From assembly GCA_017615355.1 (NCBI GenBank), contig JAGAAJ010000046.1, positions 28,242-92,241 of the forward strand: a stretch of 64,000 nucleotides of DNA, written 5' to 3'. The translations under genes were made by a program, and so were the position numbers. Shown piece after piece: positions 4,570 through 55,378 of the stretch. The notes under the pieces are model-generated. The model was given only the letters and a program-made list of their open reading frames with translations, did not search any database and had not been told where the DNA came from. Numbering within the stretch: position 1 is the stretch's first letter; each line of letters begins with the position of its first letter. The DNA comes from Prevotella sp. Its GTDB lineage: Bacteria > Bacteroidota > Bacteroidia > Bacteroidales > Bacteroidaceae.

Positions 4570-6900
4570 ATGAAGAAATTCTTTACTCTGATTGTTGCAC
4601 TCTTTGCCCTGAGCACCGCTTGGGCAGATGAGATTGACAACACCTTCCAGTTTACTGATTTGGAAGGCAATCCCGTGGCCGATGGTACGGTCATCACCAT
4701 CAACACGATCAACGAGGAGGGCCAGATGATTGTTCCCTTGAAGGTGAAGAACCTGTCGGGCGAGAAGGCTGCCGTCTCGCTTTTCGAGAACATCGACGCT
4801 ATGCCCAACGGCACTTGGCAGACTTGTGCCTTTGGCAATTGCATGCAGCTCACCGAGACGGGCTACTCACCCAAGAACATCAAAGATGCCGACTACCTTG
4901 AAGGCATTCAGACGGAGTGGATACCCGAAGCCGGCAAATATGCCACATGGGAGGCCACGCTGCAGATTCACGTATTTAATATTGTGACGACCACCCGCTT
5001 TGGTGTGACCACCGAAACCGCCGGCGAGGAAATCATCGGCTATGGTCCGAAGGTGACCGTCCGTTTCGAATACAACGACCCCAACGGTCAGTCTCAGACT
5101 GAGAAGCTGTGGTGGGGCTACGTCAACATCAACGACGACTATCTTTCAGTAGGAACGCAAACTGCCGAGACCTATTATTGCGCCAGCTGCTTTTCCAAGG
5201 ACAACCCTGCCATTGCCGGCAAGAACATTAATGCCGTGCGCTTCCGTCTGGACACCAAGAACGTGAGGAACGTGAAGGTGTGGATTGCCGAGAAGAAGCC
5301 CAGCAACCTCACTTCCGACCTGGTGAGAGTCGTGAGTTTGACTTCTCCTAAGGAGGGCATCAATGAGGTGACTTTCACCGAGCCCTATACTGTTGCCAAC
5401 AAGAACGTATACGTGGGGTACACCTTCACCATCTCGAAGTTGCAAACAACAGCCGACTCCTACCCTGTGTGCTGCACCGGCTCGGACATGGCCAACGGTC
5501 TCCTATTGAAAACATCGTCGACCACGACATCATGGACCGACCTCAATGGTTATGGCTTCGGATGCCTGCTTATGGACTTGCAGATTGAAGGTGAGTTCCC
5601 CTATCAGAATGCTGCCACCTTCGCATCAGCCGACCTTGGCGAGAGCGTTGCCGCCCTCGGTGGCACAGGCAGGCTTTGGCTGCCTGTCACTAATATGGGC
5701 ACCGCTCCGCTGCAGAACATCGACTTCACCATTACCACCGACGGAGTGGCCAGCGCAGAGCAGCACATCGACTTCAAACAGCCCATCAACTTTGGTGTTA
5801 CCAACACGGTGACCGTACAGGTGGATGCCGACAACGAGGGCGGACAGAAGACGAAGACCCTGAACATCACCAAGGTGAATGGCGTAGCCAACGAGAATGA
5901 TGCAGCAACTGCCACATTCACAATGACAACGCTATCGAAGCTGGTACACCGCGGCATCGCTGTCGAGGAGTTTACCGGTACACAGTGCGGCTGGTGCCCA
6001 CGTGGCATGGCCGGAATGGACAAACTGCGTCAACTCTTTGGTGATCACTTCGTAGGCACCGCTGTACACGGCTATGCTAACAGCACCTCCGACGACGCTA
6101 TGTACCTGTCGGGCTGGAGCACCAAGTATGCCAAGATATTCTCAGGCTCGGCACCCTCTTGTCAGCTGAACCGTGCCTACGGCGAGATTGACCCCTACTA
6201 TGGCACTGGCAATAGCATCGTTGACGATTTCGAGAACGAGCTGAGCATTCCTGCCGTGGTTGGCATAGACTTGAAGGGCGAGTGGAACGCTGACTCTACA
6301 AAGGTAACAGCTACCGCCACGCTCGAGGCCTTGACTCCCGGAAAGTCATATACCATAGAATATGTGCTGATAGCCGACAGTCTTAGTGGAACAGGCAAAG
6401 CCTGGAATCAGAGCAATTACTATGCAAGCTATTATTCGGCTTCCGACCTGCCCGATGATCTGGCTATGTTCGGCGCCGGTGGCCAGTACGGCCAGTCTAC
6501 CATCAAGGGCTGGACGTTCAACGATGCCGTCATTGCCACCTGCTACGTCAGCAGCAAGAACAAGACTACTGCTCCTGGCGTGCTGACCGTAGGCGAGCCT
6601 GTCACCAACACCTATGAACTGACCATGCCCACCAACGCCACCTTGAAGAAGGCCATCAACAAGAAGAATGTGGCCGTTGTGTGCCTCGTCATTGGAGAAG
6701 ACAAGACCGTGGCCAACGCCGCCAAGTTCTATATGCCTGGATACAATGAAAACGGCACGGAAGGCATCACGCTGGTACAGCAGGATAACGCCGTTGAGCA
6801 GCGTTTCTCGCTGGAAGGACACAGGTTGCAGGGCGCCAAGAAGGGCCTGAATATTATCCGTAAAGCCGACGGTACTACACGCAAAGTATTCGTCCGTTAA
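4570..6900 (+). CDS. Large Omp28-like protein with T9SS C-terminal sorting domain
   Basis: A 776-residue secreted protein. It has a signal peptide (MKKFFTLIVALFALSTAWA), an N-terminal beta-rich region of about 430 residues, then the Omp28/thioredoxin-like module with AVEEFTGTQCGWCPRGMAGM around residue 472, and a C-terminal tail RFSLEGHRLQGAKKGLNIIR...KVFVR. That tail looks like a type-A T9SS sorting signal, so the protein is probably secreted and attached at the cell surface. It is the last gene of the thioredoxin-DUF6029-Omp28 operon. Its CxxC differs from that of the shorter paralogue (CGWC against CVNC). Function beyond a thiol-active surface protein is not known. Confidence 0.87.
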   Translation: MKKFFTLIVALFALSTAWADEIDNTFQFTDLEGNPVADGTVITINTINEEGQMIVPLKVKNLSGEKAAVSLFENIDAMPNGTWQTCAFGNCMQLTETGYSPKNIKDADYLEGIQTEWIPEAGKYATWEATLQIHVFNIVTTTRFGVTTETAGEEIIGYGPKVTVRFEYNDPNGQSQTEKLWWGYVNINDDYLSVGTQTAETYYCASCFSKDNPAIAGKNINAVRFRLDTKNVRNVKVWIAEKKPSNLTSDLVRVVSLTSPKEGINEVTFTEPYTVANKNVYVGYTFTISKLQTTADSYPVCCTGSDMANGLLLKTSSTTTSWTDLNGYGFGCLLMDLQIEGEFPYQNAATFASADLGESVAALGGTGRLWLPVTNMGTAPLQNIDFTITTDGVASAEQHIDFKQPINFGVTNTVTVQVDADNEGGQKTKTLNITKVNGVANENDAATATFTMTTLSKLVHRGIAVEEFTGTQCGWCPRGMAGMDKLRQLFGDHFVGTAVHGYANSTSDDAMYLSGWSTKYAKIFSGSAPSCQLNRAYGEIDPYYGTGNSIVDDFENELSIPAVVGIDLKGEWNADSTKVTATATLEALTPGKSYTIEYVLIADSLSGTGKAWNQSNYYASYYSASDLPDDLAMFGAGGQYGQSTIKGWTFNDAVIATCYVSSKNKTTAPGVLTVGEPVTNTYELTMPTNATLKKAINKKNVAVVCLVIGEDKTVANAAKFYMPGYNENGTEGITLVQQDNAVEQRFSLEGHRLQGAKKGLNIIRKADGTTRKVFVR

Positions 6901-6942
6901 ACGGCTGTCTGTGCTCCGCACAGAAAGGGTAATTTTGTTTTG

Positions 6943-6990
6943 AAAAAAGCGAAAGAAAATCCATTTTTTCTTTCGCTTTTTGCTCGTTTT
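6943..6990 (+). terminator. Rho-independent terminator after the Omp28 operon
   Basis: The 16-nt arms at 6944-6959 and 6966-6981 (core GCGAAAGAAAA / TTTTCTTTCGC) form a hairpin with a 6-nt loop, followed by tgctcgtttttt. It lies between the Omp28-like gene and the gyrB -7 box. Confidence 0.85.
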
Positions 6991-6994
6991 TTAG

Positions 6995-7002
6995 TACCTT
7001 TG
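6995..7002 (+). promoter_or_regulatory. gyrB -7 box (TACCTTTG)
   Basis: TACCTTTG, a perfect TAnnTTTG element, 25 bp before the gyrB ATG and directly after the preceding terminator. gyrB therefore has its own promoter. Confidence 0.75.
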
Positions 7003-7027
7003 CACCGTAATTAGGAAACATAGAAAA

Positions 7028-9001
7028 ATGACTGACGAACAGATTCAGAACGAGAACTATTCCGCGAGTAATATTCAGGTACTTGAGGGACTGGAGGCCG
7101 TGCGCAAGCGTCCGGCCATGTATATTGGAGACATCAGCGAAAAGGGTTTGCACCACCTGGTCAACGAGACGGTTGACAACTCTATCGACGAGGCGATGGC
7201 AGGCTACTGCACCCATATCGAGGTCACTATCAACGAAGACAATAGCATCACCGTACAGGACAACGGCCGCGGTATTCCCGTGGATGAACACGAGAAGATG
7301 CACAAGAGCGCCCTTGAGGTGGTGATGACCGTGCTGCACGCCGGCGGCAAGTTCGATAAGGGCAGCTATAAGGTTTCTGGCGGTCTGCACGGCGTCGGTG
7401 TCAGCTGCGTTAACGCGCTGTCGACACACATGTTGTCACAGGTGTTCCGCAACGGGCATATCTATCAGCAGGAATACGAGAAGGGCAAGCCCCTCTACGA
7501 CGTGAAGATTGTGGGCGACACCGACCTGACCGGTACGCGCCAGCAGTTCTGGCCCGACCCCACCATCTTTACTACCACTGAGTATAAGTACGACATCATT
7601 GCCAAGCGCATGCGCGAGCTGGCCTACCTCAACGCTGGCATCACCATCACCCTGACCGATTTGAGGCCCGACGAGGAGGGCAATCTGCGCCAGCCCGAGG
7701 TGTTCCACGCCAAGGAAGGCTTGAAGGAGTTCGTGCGCTACGTGGATCGTCACCGCACGCACCTCTTCGATGACGTCATCTATCTGAAGACCGAGAAGCA
7801 GGGCACTCCTATTGAGGTGGCCGTGATGTACAACACAGACTACAGCGAGAACATCCACTCCTACGTCAACAATATCAACACCATCGAAGGCGGTACACAC
7901 CTGCAGGGCTTCCGTATGGCCCTGACCAGGACGCTGAAGAAATATGCTGACGAAGACGCTAACATCTCGAAGCAGATTGAGAAGGCGAAGATTGAGATTG
8001 CCGGCGAGGACTTCCGCGAAGGTTTGACGGCTGTCATCAGCATCAAGGTGGCTGAGCCGCAGTTTGAGGGCCAGACCAAGACGAAGCTGGGCAACAGCGA
8101 GGTGGTGGGTGCCGTCAATGCTGCCGTAGGCGAGGCGCTGACCAACTATCTGGAGGAGCATCCGAAAGAGGCCAAGCTCATCTGCGAGAAAGTCGTCCTG
8201 GCCGCTACCGCACGTATCGCCGCCCGCAAGGCACGTGAGAGCGTACAGCGCAAAAACCCGATGAGCGGCGGCGGACTGCCCGGCAAGCTGGCCGACTGCT
8301 CGAACAAAGACCCGAAGACCTGCGAGATCTTCCTCGTCGAGGGTGACTCCGCAGGTGGTAGCGCCAAGCAGGGTCGCGACCGTCACTTCCAGGCCATCCT
8401 GCCTTTGCGCGGAAAGATTCTGAACGTGGAGAAGGTGCAATGGCACCGTGTCTTTGAGGCCGAGTCGGTGATGAACATCATCCAGAGTATCGGCGTGCGC
8501 TTCGGGGTAGACGGCGAGGGCGACCGCGAGGCCAATGTCGACAAGCTGCGCTACGACAAGATTATTATCATGACCGATGCCGACGTCGATGGCTCGCACA
8601 TCGACACGCTGATTATGACGCTCTTCTACCGCTTCATGCCCAAGGTCATTCAGGAGGGACACCTCTACATCGCCACGCCACCCTTGTACAAGTGCACGTA
8701 CAAGAAGGTCAGCGAGTATTGCTACACCGAGCAGCAGCGCCAGATGTTCATCGACAAATACGTGGCTGGCGACGAGAACTCCACCGCCCTGCACACACAG
8801 CGCTACAAAGGTCTCGGTGAGATGAACCCCGAACAGCTGTGGGAGACGACCATGAATCCCGAGAACCGCCTCTTGAAGCAGGTGACCATTGAGAACGCCG
8901 CCGAGGCCGACGAGATTTTCTCCATGCTGATGGGCGATGACGTGGAGCCACGCCGCGAGTTCATCGAGAAGAACGCCACCTACGCCAACATCGACGCATA
9001 G
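7028..9001 (+). CDS. gyrB: DNA gyrase subunit B
   Basis: A 657-residue type IIA topoisomerase ATPase subunit; with GyrA it introduces negative supercoils. The GHKL ATPase motifs are intact: VDNSIDEAMAGY, DNGRGIPVDEHEK and GGLHGVGVSCVNALS. They are followed by the transducer domain, the TOPRIM domain (FLVEGDSAGGSAKQGRDR with catalytic Glu, and MTDADVDGSHI with the metal-binding aspartates) and the C-terminal QRYKGLGEMNPEQLW. The start MTDEQIQNENYSASNIQVLE and the length fit Bacteroidetes GyrB better than ParE. It is monocistronic, with its own promoter and a strong terminator at 9018. Confidence 0.97.
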   Translation: MTDEQIQNENYSASNIQVLEGLEAVRKRPAMYIGDISEKGLHHLVNETVDNSIDEAMAGYCTHIEVTINEDNSITVQDNGRGIPVDEHEKMHKSALEVVMTVLHAGGKFDKGSYKVSGGLHGVGVSCVNALSTHMLSQVFRNGHIYQQEYEKGKPLYDVKIVGDTDLTGTRQQFWPDPTIFTTTEYKYDIIAKRMRELAYLNAGITITLTDLRPDEEGNLRQPEVFHAKEGLKEFVRYVDRHRTHLFDDVIYLKTEKQGTPIEVAVMYNTDYSENIHSYVNNINTIEGGTHLQGFRMALTRTLKKYADEDANISKQIEKAKIEIAGEDFREGLTAVISIKVAEPQFEGQTKTKLGNSEVVGAVNAAVGEALTNYLEEHPKEAKLICEKVVLAATARIAARKARESVQRKNPMSGGGLPGKLADCSNKDPKTCEIFLVEGDSAGGSAKQGRDRHFQAILPLRGKILNVEKVQWHRVFEAESVMNIIQSIGVRFGVDGEGDREANVDKLRYDKIIIMTDADVDGSHIDTLIMTLFYRFMPKVIQEGHLYIATPPLYKCTYKKVSEYCYTEQQRQMFIDKYVAGDENSTALHTQRYKGLGEMNPEQLWETTMNPENRLLKQVTIENAAEADEIFSMLMGDDVEPRREFIEKNATYANIDA

Positions 9002-50692: not shown

Positions 50693-51802
50693 CTAACGAC
50701 GAATGAGCATTAGGTTAAGACCTTGTCCAGGATGTTCGTCCTGACGCTGATAATATTCATAATCGGGATGAGAGACACGGATTTCTTTCTGCGTGGTCTG
50801 TTCTTTTAATGAAAAACGAATTCTGAAGCATCCGTTATTATCAGTCATGTCCGACTTGTCTTCAATTTCTACAAGAGCGTTCTCTACAGGACGACCGTCC
50901 TCATTATCAATGACAACACCTGAATAAACGGCAAAAGACTCGTCACGATGCAATGAGAGCTGTATCTCATTACTACCTCCCCAACCAATTTGAACGTTCG
51001 TATCGATTTTTTCATAGTAAGGGGCTGAAATACCAATAGGGATATGACGGCCGCGATAATAGCCTGGGATATCGCCAATAGTAAGGACTGTATCAAGCTT
51101 ATGGATTCGATATTTCATACCATTAACAACGACAACCGCTTCTGATGGTAAGGGAAGGGAATGGTAATCATCTTTGATACGGACTGTAAGCGAAATTGGA
51201 ACCACCAACCAATAGAGTAAGAACAAACCAATAGGCACAGTAATACAGGCAATGGCAATCCGTTGCCTACGCTGCCGTTCATGGCGATGCCATAGTTCGT
51301 CGAAACTCACGCCAAGCATCCTTGCCACCACCCTGACAAAAGCCCTTTCACACCCGCCATCATTCAAATTGATGCCAAGCAGTTCACGGTCAGGCTGTTC
51401 TTCTATATACTGACGCAGAAAAGCTGGATAATAATCCTTTACGTCTTCACTCTCATTTACATCAACGAGCAGAGGGATAATGTAATCGAAACGTCCCAAC
51501 TGCTCTGTAAAGAACCTGACTTCGTTGCTTACCCAACGTGAATCGGCCGAATGCTTAGAGCAGATGACGATAAGAAACTTTGACTCGCTAAGATGTCGGT
51601 GTAACTCATCTGAAAGAACACCAGAATCAAGATCTGTCTGATCACGGAAAACAGGGCGCAAATAGCGAGAATCATCAAATTCATTATGAATCTCTGCCGG
51701 AAGTTTGTAGGATTCCAACTTCCGATGTAACCACTTAGCCACTTTCTGGTCTTTGTGGTTATAGCTGATAAAGGCGTATTTTGTCTTAGTTTCCTGCTCC
51801 AT
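50693..51802 (-). CDS. TIR-domain transmembrane protein
   Basis: A 369-residue protein with an N-terminal TIR domain (residues ~8-140: TKYAFISYNHKDQKVAKWLH; LRPVFRDQTDLDSG; SKFLIVICSKHSADSRWVSN). The Glu two residues after RWVS (WVSNE) lies where TIR NADases keep their catalytic Glu. A membrane span follows (IAIACITVPIGLFLLYWLVV), then an extracytoplasmic part with a carboxypeptidase-regulatory-like beta-sandwich (YSGVVIDNEDGRPVENALVE). The ATG at 51802 lies one base after the upstream stop (an alternative at 51820 overlaps it by 17 bp), so translation is coupled to the LRR gene. AT-richer than the flanking housekeeping genes. Confidence 0.9.
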   Translation of the reverse strand: MEQETKTKYAFISYNHKDQKVAKWLHRKLESYKLPAEIHNEFDDSRYLRPVFRDQTDLDSGVLSDELHRHLSESKFLIVICSKHSADSRWVSNEVRFFTEQLGRFDYIIPLLVDVNESEDVKDYYPAFLRQYIEEQPDRELLGINLNDGGCERAFVRVVARMLGVSFDELWHRHERQRRQRIAIACITVPIGLFLLYWLVVPISLTVRIKDDYHSLPLPSEAVVVVNGMKYRIHKLDTVLTIGDIPGYYRGRHIPIGISAPYYEKIDTNVQIGWGGSNEIQLSLHRDESFAVYSGVVIDNEDGRPVENALVEIEDKSDMTDNNGCFRIRFSLKEQTTQKEIRVSHPDYEYYQRQDEHPGQGLNLMLIRR

Positions 51803-51803
51803 C

Positions 51804-54695
51804 TTACTCCAGTTCATCATACTTTTTTTGAAGCATGTCCATCATCCGCTGAATCGGCTCGTTATCTTTATCCTCTCTAAGGACAAAATTACACTGTTTG
51901 TAAGCCCAGCTATAGTAATATTTGCTGATTTCTTTATCCTTATTGCGAAACAGACTACCAGCATGAAGGCAGACTATGCTGAATTCAAGAATCCTATCTG
52001 AGAGTGCCTTAAAATCATGCGGATGATTCGAATCGTAAGCGTTCAAATTGAAACGAGTACAGTACATCAACACCTCATCATAGATTCGTTTGGCCCCATA
52101 CCAATCATCATTTCGAGCCAAACTATCTGCTCTCTGCCTATAGGTTTTCAACAGGTATTGGGCTTCATTAATCCTTGTCGACAATTTGTTGTACATAGAG
52201 CCAGAAGGAGGAATATGGTCCAAGGTTTTAAGAGCCTTTTCCAAGTCATGATCATTCGTATAAAACATCCCTTTCACATACCAAGGTACTGAATCATTCG
52301 GATATGTGCCACACACCTCATCCAACAGGGCCTCAAAATCCAGCCTTTCTATGGTTGACCGTTCTATTCCATAATAGCTGAAATAGATGGTATAATTTTC
52401 CATCCTTGGCTCTAGCCGTTTTTCAAATATATCAAGGACAACATCTGGTGATAATTCCTTTGGCAATATGACACGGACTGTGGAATCCATGAGATTGCTT
52501 ACCCCTGATTTCAGCTCTTTGGGCACAATGACAGTTTTTATATGATAGGGCTTCACCAAGCAAGACTCACAAGACTTATCATACAGGACTCCACCGATAG
52601 AACAGAAATCTGTATTATCAGGGTGGACACTAAAAGAATCAATAGATGCTGCGAATGAATAATAGCCATCAGTTCTGAACAATTCTTCCATAGTAAAGCC
52701 ATCGTCTTGAGGAGCTTTAACGGGCTTCGGAATATAGAATACGTTCAGCAATGCTGGATTGTTTTCCCACGCTTTAATAGAGTCATCCCAGTTTCTATAT
52801 CTCAATGCTGTCGCCCAATAGCATTTTGTAGTATCGGCAGAAAAAAGAACATTGTTTAATACCACGAAATCCTTATTTTGAGGACTTACTTGAACACTAC
52901 TAAATGGTGGTGACAAACGCCAAGGCATTTCGTAGCCTGTTAGACGCTTCACCGTTGCTGGCAGGTAAAGAGACAAGCCTTCACCATTTTGTTCTAATTC
53001 GCAGTTGACCATCCATGCATCACCGACCTCCTCAATACCTTCCGGAAGAACAATGTTGTTTTTATCAAAAAAAACTCCTGTTAAGGCCCCATTCTTTATG
53101 ACTTTCAGCGACTTAGGCAAGTTTACCGAGACACCATCAAACCGACGGTATGAAATGAGCCCTTCCCCAATATATCGTATCGTATTCGGAAATTTCACTT
53201 TTTCTATAAAACTATTCATAAATAGAACTTCACCATCAGATTCTTCGACATCCGCAACCCCTTGCGGATTATCTATCAACTGGTGGTTCTCATTATATGA
53301 GCTGTCACGACTGAACACAGGTTTAAGTGGGGAATCCGGGTCAAATGCTTCTGAGCAGATCTTTGTCACAGTGTAAGTTTTACCCTCATGCTTCACTTTT
53401 TCAGGAATAGTCACAGTAACTGGCACATCGCCCATTTCTTCACAATGAACCATAGAAAGCTCGGCATTGTCAAGAATGTGGTAGTAGAGGATATAGTCCT
53501 TATAAGAAACGCCGAAATCGGGGAAAGCCTCATAATGGTCTTTGATATAGTCCAAATCTTGATAGTATTCAGGGAGCTCATAGCCACGGAGCGTCACGTT
53601 GTCAAGCAATCTTTTTGCCAGTTGCCTTCTCGTATTGTAATCTACGCGATCTTTACCAATGCTCATTGATGATAGTTCCATTAGCGCATCGCTGTTATCC
53701 AGTTTAGCAGACTCCCTTAGACAAGCAATGGCCTCTTCCGGTTTTGAATTGCTTAACCAGCAATATTTTTTATACAGAATTTTTCCCAATTTCACTTCTA
53801 CCTCACGTATCGCATCTGCTGACCATTGGGGAAAATGCTTTGTTCCAACTTCCAGTTCTGCACGATACATATCTTCCAAAGAGTTAAACAGCTCCAAAAG
53901 CTCTGCTTCGTCAAATTCGTCATCCGCCTGACATAGCTGAATATGTTGTTCTAATAGAGTAATTGTACGGCGATGCTGTCTGATTTGTTCTTCATATGCA
54001 GAAGCTGCCGTAAAAAGATTCTGATTGCGGTCACGAGCCTGTTTGTTCAGATCCATTTGCCTTCCGATTTCCCTCGCACGGTCGAAATCTGAGTGCAAAA
54101 CACATTGCCGCCATTCATATTCTAAAGAATCAATGGTGGTCTCATCAACGTAGGCAAACAACACTGCTCTCAAACGGATAGCCTTCAGTTCGTCTTGATA
54201 ATCCTTTTCTAACTTCTGGAGCTCTTTTTTCATCTCTTCACGATTTTGTTGCTCCAGTTCCCTGCGCTGCCGGTCATACTTCGCCTTCATCTCACGAACG
54301 TAAGCCGCAGTATATACAGCCTGAGTGTAATCGAGACTATCCTTCTGATATAGCACTATCTCAAGTGTTGCCTGAGGTGAAAGATTCCAGTCATTTATTT
54401 TATCAGCATTAAACACTACATATTTTTTGTTGCCGATAGTAATGCTATACCCCTTGATAGTATCGCCAGCGTGAGCACGTGCAAACTGCAGCTGGAACGT
54501 GCCGTTTTGTCCCCTTCCCTGATTAGTCGTAGTACCAGCGCCCTCGAATCTCAACTCCACAGGATTTGTATAGGTCGTTTTAGGCTGTCGGCCATGATAC
54601 TCCAATGTAACACCTCGCTGAGTAATCTGAGCTGATGCAAATATGGAGATAATAAGACTACAAATGGAAAGTATTATGCGGCGTTTCATATTCAT
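51804..54695 (-). CDS. Exported coiled-coil / BspA-type LRR protein paired with the TIR protein
   Basis: A 963-residue protein with signal peptide (MKRRIILSICSLIISIFASAQ; the ATG at 54695 or 54689). An N-terminal beta-domain (residues ~25-110) is followed by a strong coiled coil (~130-280: YDRQRRELEQQNREEMKKEL), a helical SEL1-like part, BspA/LRR_5 repeats (VTVTIPEKVKHEGKTYTVTK, FIEKVKFPNTIRYIGEGLIS, NLPKSLKVIKNGALTG) and a C-terminal TPR-like helical region (LEKALKTLDHIPPSG). No membrane anchor beyond the signal peptide, so it is periplasmic or surface-associated. It is the first gene of the pair; the promoter is TATTTTTG at 54929. Confidence 0.85.
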   Translation of the reverse strand: MNMKRRIILSICSLIISIFASAQITQRGVTLEYHGRQPKTTYTNPVELRFEGAGTTTNQGRGQNGTFQLQFARAHAGDTIKGYSITIGNKKYVVFNADKINDWNLSPQATLEIVLYQKDSLDYTQAVYTAAYVREMKAKYDRQRRELEQQNREEMKKELQKLEKDYQDELKAIRLRAVLFAYVDETTIDSLEYEWRQCVLHSDFDRAREIGRQMDLNKQARDRNQNLFTAASAYEEQIRQHRRTITLLEQHIQLCQADDEFDEAELLELFNSLEDMYRAELEVGTKHFPQWSADAIREVEVKLGKILYKKYCWLSNSKPEEAIACLRESAKLDNSDALMELSSMSIGKDRVDYNTRRQLAKRLLDNVTLRGYELPEYYQDLDYIKDHYEAFPDFGVSYKDYILYYHILDNAELSMVHCEEMGDVPVTVTIPEKVKHEGKTYTVTKICSEAFDPDSPLKPVFSRDSSYNENHQLIDNPQGVADVEESDGEVLFMNSFIEKVKFPNTIRYIGEGLISYRRFDGVSVNLPKSLKVIKNGALTGVFFDKNNIVLPEGIEEVGDAWMVNCELEQNGEGLSLYLPATVKRLTGYEMPWRLSPPFSSVQVSPQNKDFVVLNNVLFSADTTKCYWATALRYRNWDDSIKAWENNPALLNVFYIPKPVKAPQDDGFTMEELFRTDGYYSFAASIDSFSVHPDNTDFCSIGGVLYDKSCESCLVKPYHIKTVIVPKELKSGVSNLMDSTVRVILPKELSPDVVLDIFEKRLEPRMENYTIYFSYYGIERSTIERLDFEALLDEVCGTYPNDSVPWYVKGMFYTNDHDLEKALKTLDHIPPSGSMYNKLSTRINEAQYLLKTYRQRADSLARNDDWYGAKRIYDEVLMYCTRFNLNAYDSNHPHDFKALSDRILEFSIVCLHAGSLFRNKDKEISKYYYSWAYKQCNFVLREDKDNEPIQRMMDMLQKKYDELE

Positions 54696-55126: not shown

Positions 55127-55311
55127 GGTCACGGTCACAGCTGTGACCATATCCACTACACCTCTAACGGCAAATGCAGAATCTTATTAACCGTCTAAAA
55201 TTCAGTCTGTTGAAGAATTCTGTTTCCATATCGTTTCTCTGCGCGGTCACAAAAACGGTCACAGTCAGCAGACGGTCACGGTCACATGGTCACAGCTGTG
55301 ACCGTGTGACC
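55127..55311. repeat. GGTCAC repeat clusters with perfect palindromes
   Basis: The 16-bp palindrome GGTCACAGCTGTGACC occurs at 55133-55148 and 55288-55303. The second copy sits in a 32-bp near-perfect palindrome (55280-55311). Extra GGTCAC copies lie at 55127, 55245, 55257, 55274 and 55280, on the plus strand and spaced 6-17 bp within the second cluster. Confidence 0.85.
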
Positions 55312-55378
55312 ATAACGACGAACTTCAAGCGATTGCAAAAAGTCAGAAGGAATCTCCTGGCGAGTCTAATGCATTGAC

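Follow-up and report, generated by a model that had tools for sequence, protein, structure and literature searches.

A membrane-anchored TIR protein and its exported partner in Bacteroidota: a candidate trans-envelope signalling module linked to RyR-domain proteins

Introduction

The bacterial TIR systems that have been studied best act as alarms in the cytoplasm. Animal Toll-like receptors have one membrane span, a cytoplasmic TIR domain and extracytoplasmic recognition repeats. Here we analyse a pair of neighbouring genes from Prevotella sp., one coding for an exported protein, termed the partner, and the other for a membrane protein with a TIR domain, termed the TIR protein. They lie on a 64,000-nucleotide stretch of DNA (assembly GCA_017615355.1, contig JAGAAJ010000046.1, positions 28,242 to 92,241), referred to as the window. 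An earlier note, made from the sequence alone, had read the pair as a Toll-like receptor split in two, in which an exported protein with leucine-rich repeats (LRRs) senses an event outside the cytoplasm and triggers the TIR domain.

The pair resembles Thoeris (ThsB and ThsA) in that the window TIR domain belongs to the ThsB_TIR/TIR_2 class and in that a signal derived from NAD and a separate effector are predicted. However, the window TIR domain is anchored in the membrane, is joined to an ectodomain in the periplasm and has an exported partner, and the effectors linked to it are RyR and RCK proteins, not a ThsA of the SIR2-SLOG or macro-TM type. No ThsA of either type is found among the five scanned neighbours of the pair in the window, and by neighbour content the pair is not Thoeris.

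With Toll-like receptors the pair shares the single span, the cytoplasmic TIR domain and the extracytoplasmic recognition repeats. In the pair, however, these elements are distributed over two chains, the TIR domain is N-terminal, in mirror order to Toll-like receptors, and the repeats are mostly tetratricopeptide repeats (TPRs) rather than LRRs. Moreover, the ectodomain of the membrane protein consists of sandwiches that resemble carboxypeptidase regulatory domains. In its architecture the pair thus differs from a Toll-like receptor, even if it may function like one.

Finally, excerpts of two papers on bacterial conflict systems describe how TIR, EAD and other effector modules interchange on a common chassis, and how some of these systems are membrane-associated and have extracellular domains (PMC7159879, PMC8195603). 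The cytoplasmic modules of the family analysed here are exchanged in the same way, but the excerpts describe no comparable pair of an exported sensor and an ectodomain. A literature search that covered mostly titles and the openings of abstracts turned up no account of such a pair, nor of an operon that combines TIR, RyR and RCK. The pair may represent TIR-based signalling in a new form, built on a receptor chassis that may deserve to be regarded as its own kind.

Results

The TIR protein and its partner are encoded as a conserved pair

The minus strand of the window contains two consecutive open frames, the first for the partner and the second for the TIR protein (Table 1). The stop codon of the partner gene (51806-51804) is separated by a single base from an ATG at 51802, which corresponds to Met7 of the listed TIR frame. 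Two further in-frame ATGs lie more 5' (51820 and 51817), and a start at either of them would result in an overlap with the partner gene.

A scan for relatives, with one genome per species, recovered 209 stretches containing a relative, of which the best 80 were kept, yielding 78 loci. By length, 65 of these code for an unfused TIR protein (332-411 aa), whereas in 13 the TIR domain is inside a longer protein (fused). A partner gene is adjacent, meaning less than 100 bp away and on the same strand, in 53 of the 65 unfused but in none of the 13 fused loci (Fisher 2.4e-8). All eight nearest relatives (L072-L079) have an adjacent partner, and at least one partner gene is present in the examined stretch of 60 unfused loci. 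Within 150 genomes of the genus, the TIR query matches 14, of which ten have an unfused TIR protein. The full-length partner is found in the same ten genomes and in none else (Fisher 8.6e-16). This search used a profile of the partner N-terminus (246 positions).

The same profile gave matches in 87 of the 150 genomes, but in 77 of them these were only weak (E 8e-11 or worse) and were left uncounted. The weak matches mostly cover the first ~80 of the 246 positions, corresponding to the N-terminal beta domain, and often lie in frames of ~1,000 aa, which we read as SusC-like.

Thus, genomics strongly supports a coupling of the TIR protein and its partner in a conserved module. Joint conservation was one of three tests that the earlier note had set for its reading, the others being a TIR catalytic fold and a compartment shared by the exported protein and the TIR ectodomain. 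The reading passed all three, the last by prediction, and the note was also borne out on the single base between stop and start.

Other genes were seen at some of these loci. A gene for an exported protein that combines LRR_5 with a caspase domain (Peptidase_C14) is directly upstream of the TIR gene at L142:6392-7996, L091:6420-7934 and L089:6295-7803, the assignment at L091 and L089 being made by sequence similarity; in all three the partner gene is farther off. A ~237-254-aa protein with several hydrophobic stretches, which we take to resemble a PrsW-type membrane protease, recurs in six of the 65 loci (L090, L139, L076, L077, L078, L107); in two of these, L090 and L139, its gene directly follows that of the TIR protein.

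The TIR protein has a canonical TIR domain, one span and two beta-sandwiches

Pfam searches with the TIR protein detect TIR_2 (3.9e-15) and ThsB_TIR (1.4e-11), the latter over its cut-off. The structural model has a mean predicted local distance difference test score (pLDDT) of 89.5 and confirms the TIR fold, with SPARTA TIRs among the top structural matches. Glu100, in the position of the glutamate of the WVxxE motif, is found in all aligned unfused TIR proteins (65 of 65) and is presumably equivalent to E642 of SARM1. The window TIR domain is a canonical one, and a TIR domain, a membrane span and a beta-sandwich are indeed united in a single protein, except that there are two sandwiches. Basic residues N-terminal to the span would place the TIR domain on the cytoplasmic side of the inner membrane. 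The second sandwich matches CarboxypepD_reg (3.1e-6) with 27.9 bits, below the cut-off of 32.3, and its Foldseek matches include carboxypeptidases N and D. PADLOC models match through the TIR domain only (SAVED_TIR 6.3e-8, best ThsB model 5.4e-5), and NCBIfam gives no match over cut-off for either protein of the pair.

The partner follows the ectodomain rather than the TIR domain

All but one (64) of the 65 unfused TIR proteins have the ectodomain, as against none of the 13 fused ones. The exception (L123) is also without a partner. We extended the searches to the order, where 47 of 295 genomes match, and to the class, where 31 of 395 match. At the order level we counted seven genomes with a full-length TIR protein (E 3e-93 or better) and six with an ectodomain but no TIR domain (E 2e-23 to 1e-22 or better), excluding the short or weak rest; at the class level the six best besides the window were examined. 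Both searches recovered proteins that share the span and the ectodomain but have no TIR domain. For the six strongest such proteins of the order, the partner gene is adjacent in four and separated by one gene in another; the last locus stops at a contig end. It is also adjacent in four of the six strongest of the class, the other two having none within the examined stretch. The N-termini of these adjacent four are EAD11 in two (1.6e-20, 4.7e-19) and HEPN_STY4199 in two (2.5e-35, 4e-35). Thus, in other families of the class (L223, L224, L227, L228), EAD11 or HEPN replaces the TIR domain in a module that retains the span, the ectodomain and the partner. Moreover, at the order level, the N-terminus of L216 is a C39-like peptidase (2e-5, just over cut-off).

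Distances between partners correlate with those between ectodomains when TIR distances are held constant (partial r 0.32). There is hardly any correlation with TIR distances when the ectodomain is held constant (partial r 0.08), in both cases for 52 pairs and uncorrected for phylogeny. Most simply, these results can be read as an interaction between partner and ectodomain, with the cytoplasmic module serving as an exchangeable output.

A further N-terminal domain without assignment is common to four of the order-level proteins, L212-L215. It has no Pfam match in L212, L213 and L215, no match in the PDB below E 0.26 and no profile similarity to the TIR domains of our set. DUF4062 (PF13271) was considered, but its matches are marginal in two of the four genomes (0.09, 0.47) and absent in the other two. 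A relationship to the DUF4062 TIR-like NADase of Swarozyc, as described in an excerpt (PMC13174449), is possible but not established.

The exported partner has a conserved N-terminal part and a variable C-terminus

The profile Hidden Markov Model (HMM) of the partner family matches the window protein from the signal peptide into the coiled-coil region, up to residue 236 (Table 1), and the protein is therefore a member of the family defined by that part. Its signal peptide has, by eye, no lipobox Cys. Together with the span of the TIR protein, this signal peptide would put the partner and the TIR ectodomain on the same, periplasmic side, in agreement with the earlier note. The N-terminal beta domain is conserved in the family and resembles carboxypeptidase regulatory domains by similarity; positions 27-82 of the partner HMM also match the ectodomain of TIR protein L074 (7.9e-9).

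The rest of the partner is variable. For residues 237-963, a search of 3,976 open reading frames (L054-L149 and the window) finds no relative at E 1e-3, the sole weak match being L136 (0.0033). LRR_5 is detected at residues 491-566 (2.7e-4) with 21.3 bits, below the cut-off of 27.7, and three leucine-rich PDB chains (4fs7, 4fdw, 4fd0) match the stretch with E 0.008-0.013. A relative, L072, is also of the LRR form and exceeds the cut-off (33.5 bits against 27.7). The AlphaFold model of the partner is poor (pLDDT 60), only about its first third being well modelled. Since, in addition, Foldseek finds no match for the C-terminal part at E 0.001, we claim no fold for it. The model shows the tail (832-962) as helical, yet neither Pfam nor the PDB nor Foldseek gives a significant match for it, which leaves its identity as TPR unconfirmed. 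PADLOC has no match for the partner at all. The signal peptide and the coiled coil ascribed to this protein are thus confirmed, while its LRRs stay below cut-off and its TPR-like tail finds no significant match. In the family as a whole LRRs are not the rule, which corrects the earlier note: TPR_2 was detected in 55 of the 61 members that were scanned, and LRRs are rarer. There are also short partners of ~260-330 aa with few or no repeats, often next to a long one.

RyR and RCK proteins are linked to the pair

Two kinds of genes recur next to the pair. One codes for a small RyR protein (PF02026) of ~93-107 aa, the other for RCK-type membrane proteins of typically 630-820 aa that end in a C-terminal RyR-like domain. 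One or both are found in 35 of the 65 unfused loci. The gene order is RCK, RyR, TIR, partner, partner in L218, and RCK, RyR, partner, partner, TIR in L219. Within the genus, 9 of the 10 genomes with an unfused TIR protein have RyR as compared to 16 of the 140 others (p 2.2e-7), and at the order level 5 of 7 as compared to 20 of 288 (p 5.5e-5). The genome of the window has an RCK gene (727 aa) followed, side by side, by a RyR gene (97 aa) at G000:C146:33960-36455.

The 97-aa protein matches PF02026 with 129.6 bits, over cut-off, as well as bacterial 3nrt (2.4e-35), RyR1 and other animal RyR domains. According to an excerpt on phage proteins with RyR domains, these degrade or sequester immune signals of the cyclic ADP-ribose (cADPR) type; residues H75, W78, H100 and D117 contact 3'cADPR, and in RyDEP a His/Asp pair is reported to be catalytic (PMC13232231). 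Of 17 small RyR proteins, 16 retain the four ligand residues at the same spacing (H, +3 W, +25 H, +42 D), and that of the window genome is one of them. In the channel-like proteins the corresponding His, Trp, His and Asp are found in 11 of 11 members of the type present in the window genome (the last two matched by eye) and, by alignment, in 11, 11, 10 and 11 of 11 members of the other type. The exact spacing is kept in only 3 of 13 proteins of the channel type examined first, where the residues are conserved by alignment, with loop insertions. What sets our proteins apart from the RyR (Repeat12) proteins of animals, bacteria and phages is that they are tied to a TIR receptor and that an RCK membrane protein carries a RyR-like domain at its C-terminus.

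The RCK channel-like proteins have two or three predicted spans. The profile of the type found in the window genome aligns, weakly and partially, with the plant RCK-type channel CASTOR (8.2e-4, over a 111-position stretch, 125-235), and also with DMI1 (0.0028). The window-genome protein differs from both in being bacterial and in its C-terminal RyR-like domain.

The small RyR proteins of L084, L089, L100, L149 and others retain the His and the Asp that are reported to be catalytic in phage RyDEP, and could therefore destroy a signal instead of sensing it. Just upstream of the RCK-RyR gene pair of the window genome are two genes for probably exported proteins (L180:5359-5913 and 5910-7937), neither of which has a Pfam match.

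Discussion

We think that the pair is probably part of a modular trans-envelope signalling system of Bacteroidota, in which a periplasmic sensor acts through the TIR domain and a cADPR-type signal on a RyR-gated channel. The exported repeat protein would recognise a trigger in the periplasm, and its beta domain and coiled coil would engage the two-domain ectodomain of the single-span protein in the inner membrane. Clustering or re-arrangement of the latter might then activate the cytoplasmic N-terminal module. The TIR domain would oligomerise and most likely cut NAD+ to produce a signal of the cyclic ADP-ribose type, which could be read by the C-terminal RyR-like domain of the RCK membrane protein, a putative distant relative of CASTOR and DMI1 that is predicted to gate ions. 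The small free RyR protein might serve as a co-receptor or co-reader, as a buffer, or as an off-switch that destroys the signal. The split receptor of the earlier note thus survives in part: the partner follows the ectodomain even where the TIR domain is replaced, but the likely RyR/RCK effector was missing from that proposal.

Several observations weigh against such a system. Regarding the receptor, 12 of the 65 unfused loci are without an adjacent partner (L082, L084, L089, L091, L096, L099, L110, L118, L123, L128, L130, L142), and five (L082, L096, L099, L123, L128) have none in the stretch. Of these five a contig edge cuts only L082, and L096, L099 and L128 do have the ectodomain, whereas L123 does not. 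The window partner is poorly resolved in its LRR half and in its tail, most of residues 453-839 having a pLDDT below 50, and the mirror-tree correlations are uncorrected for phylogeny. Regarding the output, 30 of the 65 unfused loci show neither RyR nor RCK, in some cases because the contigs are short. RyR or RCK genes also occur in 6 of the 13 fused loci and are therefore not specific to this receptor. In the window genome the receptor pair and the RCK-RyR pair are on different contigs, which makes their link one of co-presence only; there is no RyR or RCK gene among the five scanned neighbours in the window, and another TIR_2 protein (G000:C69) is encoded in the same genome as the RCK-RyR pair. 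The RyR-like domain of the channel-like proteins is mostly below the Pfam cut-off, exceeding it in G044 and G028. Pfam detects no RCK domain in the 727-aa protein, no K+ selectivity-filter pattern was found in eight channel proteins, whose pore motif was not identified, and the RCK gene of L219 is split over two overlapping frames.

The alternative that survives best also assumes a split receptor, but has the TIR domain kill the cell directly by depleting NAD+, as in abortive infection, with no second messenger involved; the RyR and RCK genes would be separate and would only share genomes or islands with the pair. Several bacterial TIR systems deplete NAD+, SPARTA TIRs resemble the window TIR domain in structure, and the RyR/RCK genes of the window genome are on another contig. 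However, at many loci these genes form tight runs with the pair, their phyletic association is strong and their ligand residues are conserved. We therefore regard direct killing as unlikely.

The receptor might instead serve envelope or ion homeostasis, sensing periplasmic stress and adjusting ion flux via the RCK protein. This would fit the resemblance of the output to an ion channel, TPR or LRR repeats that could monitor envelope proteins in the periplasm, and the absence of a recognised defence gene among the five scanned window neighbours. Yet the cytoplasmic slot can be taken by EAD11 and HEPN, which are domains typical of conflict systems, and the sporadic distribution (10 of 150 genomes) and the variable partner arrays are typical of defence. 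We thus find a homeostatic function rather unlikely. The exchange of TIR for EAD11 or HEPN and the patchy distribution favour a role in conflict, that is, in immunity.

A third possibility is that the exported protein is no sensor but helps the TIR protein to assemble or acts as its scaffold, with the signal coming from elsewhere. Partners of ~260-330 aa with few or no repeats, frequently located beside a long one, could be seen in this way, but most partners have long TPR or LRR extensions, the usual mark of a recognition surface, which makes a mere scaffold quite improbable. That unrelated genes are side by side by chance, for which only the metagenomic assembly of many loci could be adduced, has next to no probability and is already refuted by the 53 of 65 adjacent partners and the identical distribution in 150 genomes.

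Returning to the trans-envelope system, a more far-reaching version of it is an outside-in immune receptor, in which the periplasmic repeat protein signals to the TIR domain and cyclic ADP-ribose gates the RyR-bearing RCK channel. Its chassis would accept TIR, EAD11, HEPN or peptidase modules, and it would be a counterpart, possibly an ancestor, of the cADPR control of animal ryanodine receptors. We propose this version tentatively, as an open possibility that falls short of being probable.

If an inner-membrane TIR protein is indeed controlled by an exported sensor, it would constitute a trans-envelope receptor whose logic is close to that of animal Toll-like receptors. The operon link to RyR channel-like proteins opens an old question to direct testing, namely whether the Repeat12 domain of ryanodine receptors is by origin a receptor for cyclic ADP-ribose isomers. 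Moreover, since a single ectodomain and partner are combined with several cytoplasmic outputs, they can be used to search gut and rumen bacteria for defence or stress systems that are still undiscovered.

Features of the locus and its surroundings

Table 1. Positions in the window of the two genes and of their protein regions.
Feature	Position	Strand	Basis
Exported partner protein, 963 aa	51804..54695	-	Partner-family HMM 1.2e-44, residues 11-236
Signal peptide, residues 1-22	54630..54695	-	Hydrophobic 7-25; ASA|Q end; model helix 2-20
N-terminal beta domain, residues 24-117	54345..54626	-	Model strands 24-117, pLDDT ~78-94
Coiled-coil/helical region, residues 118-343	53667..54344	-	Model helices 118-148, 152-181, 190-343
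BspA-type LRR stretch, residues 485-566 (weak)	52998..53243	-	LRR_5; PDB 4fs7, 4fdw, 4fd0
Helical tail, residues 832-962 (TPR-like, unconfirmed)	51810..52202	-	Model helices
TIR-span-ectodomain protein	50693..51820	-	375 aa from first ATG; 369 aa from ATG 51802
TIR domain, residues 14-145	51386..51781	-	Pfam, model and structural matches
Glu100 codon, putative catalytic Glu of WVSNE	51521..51523	-	Invariant in 65/65 aligned
Single membrane span, residues 188-206	51203..51259	-	Hydropathy; long model helix 173-206
Ectodomain beta-sandwich 1, residues 209-290	50951..51196	-	Model, pLDDT blocks 77-96
Ectodomain beta-sandwich 2, CarboxypepD_reg-like, residues 298-372	50705..50929	-	Subthreshold Pfam; Foldseek

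The window genome (G000) is a 3.25 Mb assembly of 147 contigs. Of the five scanned neighbours of the pair, two lie on one side (a histidine kinase and a small protein that is CarboxypepD_reg-like) and three on the other (an EamA transporter, an ECF sigma factor, one protein without assignment). The second TIR_2 protein of this genome is found at G000:C69:50145-50492, in a 546-aa frame. Finally, the long gap that separates the partner gene from the histidine kinase gene (window 55127-55320) contains a perfect 16-base palindrome twice (55133, 55288), among many words of the TGTGACC type. These palindromes may be regulator sites or the remnant of a mobile element.

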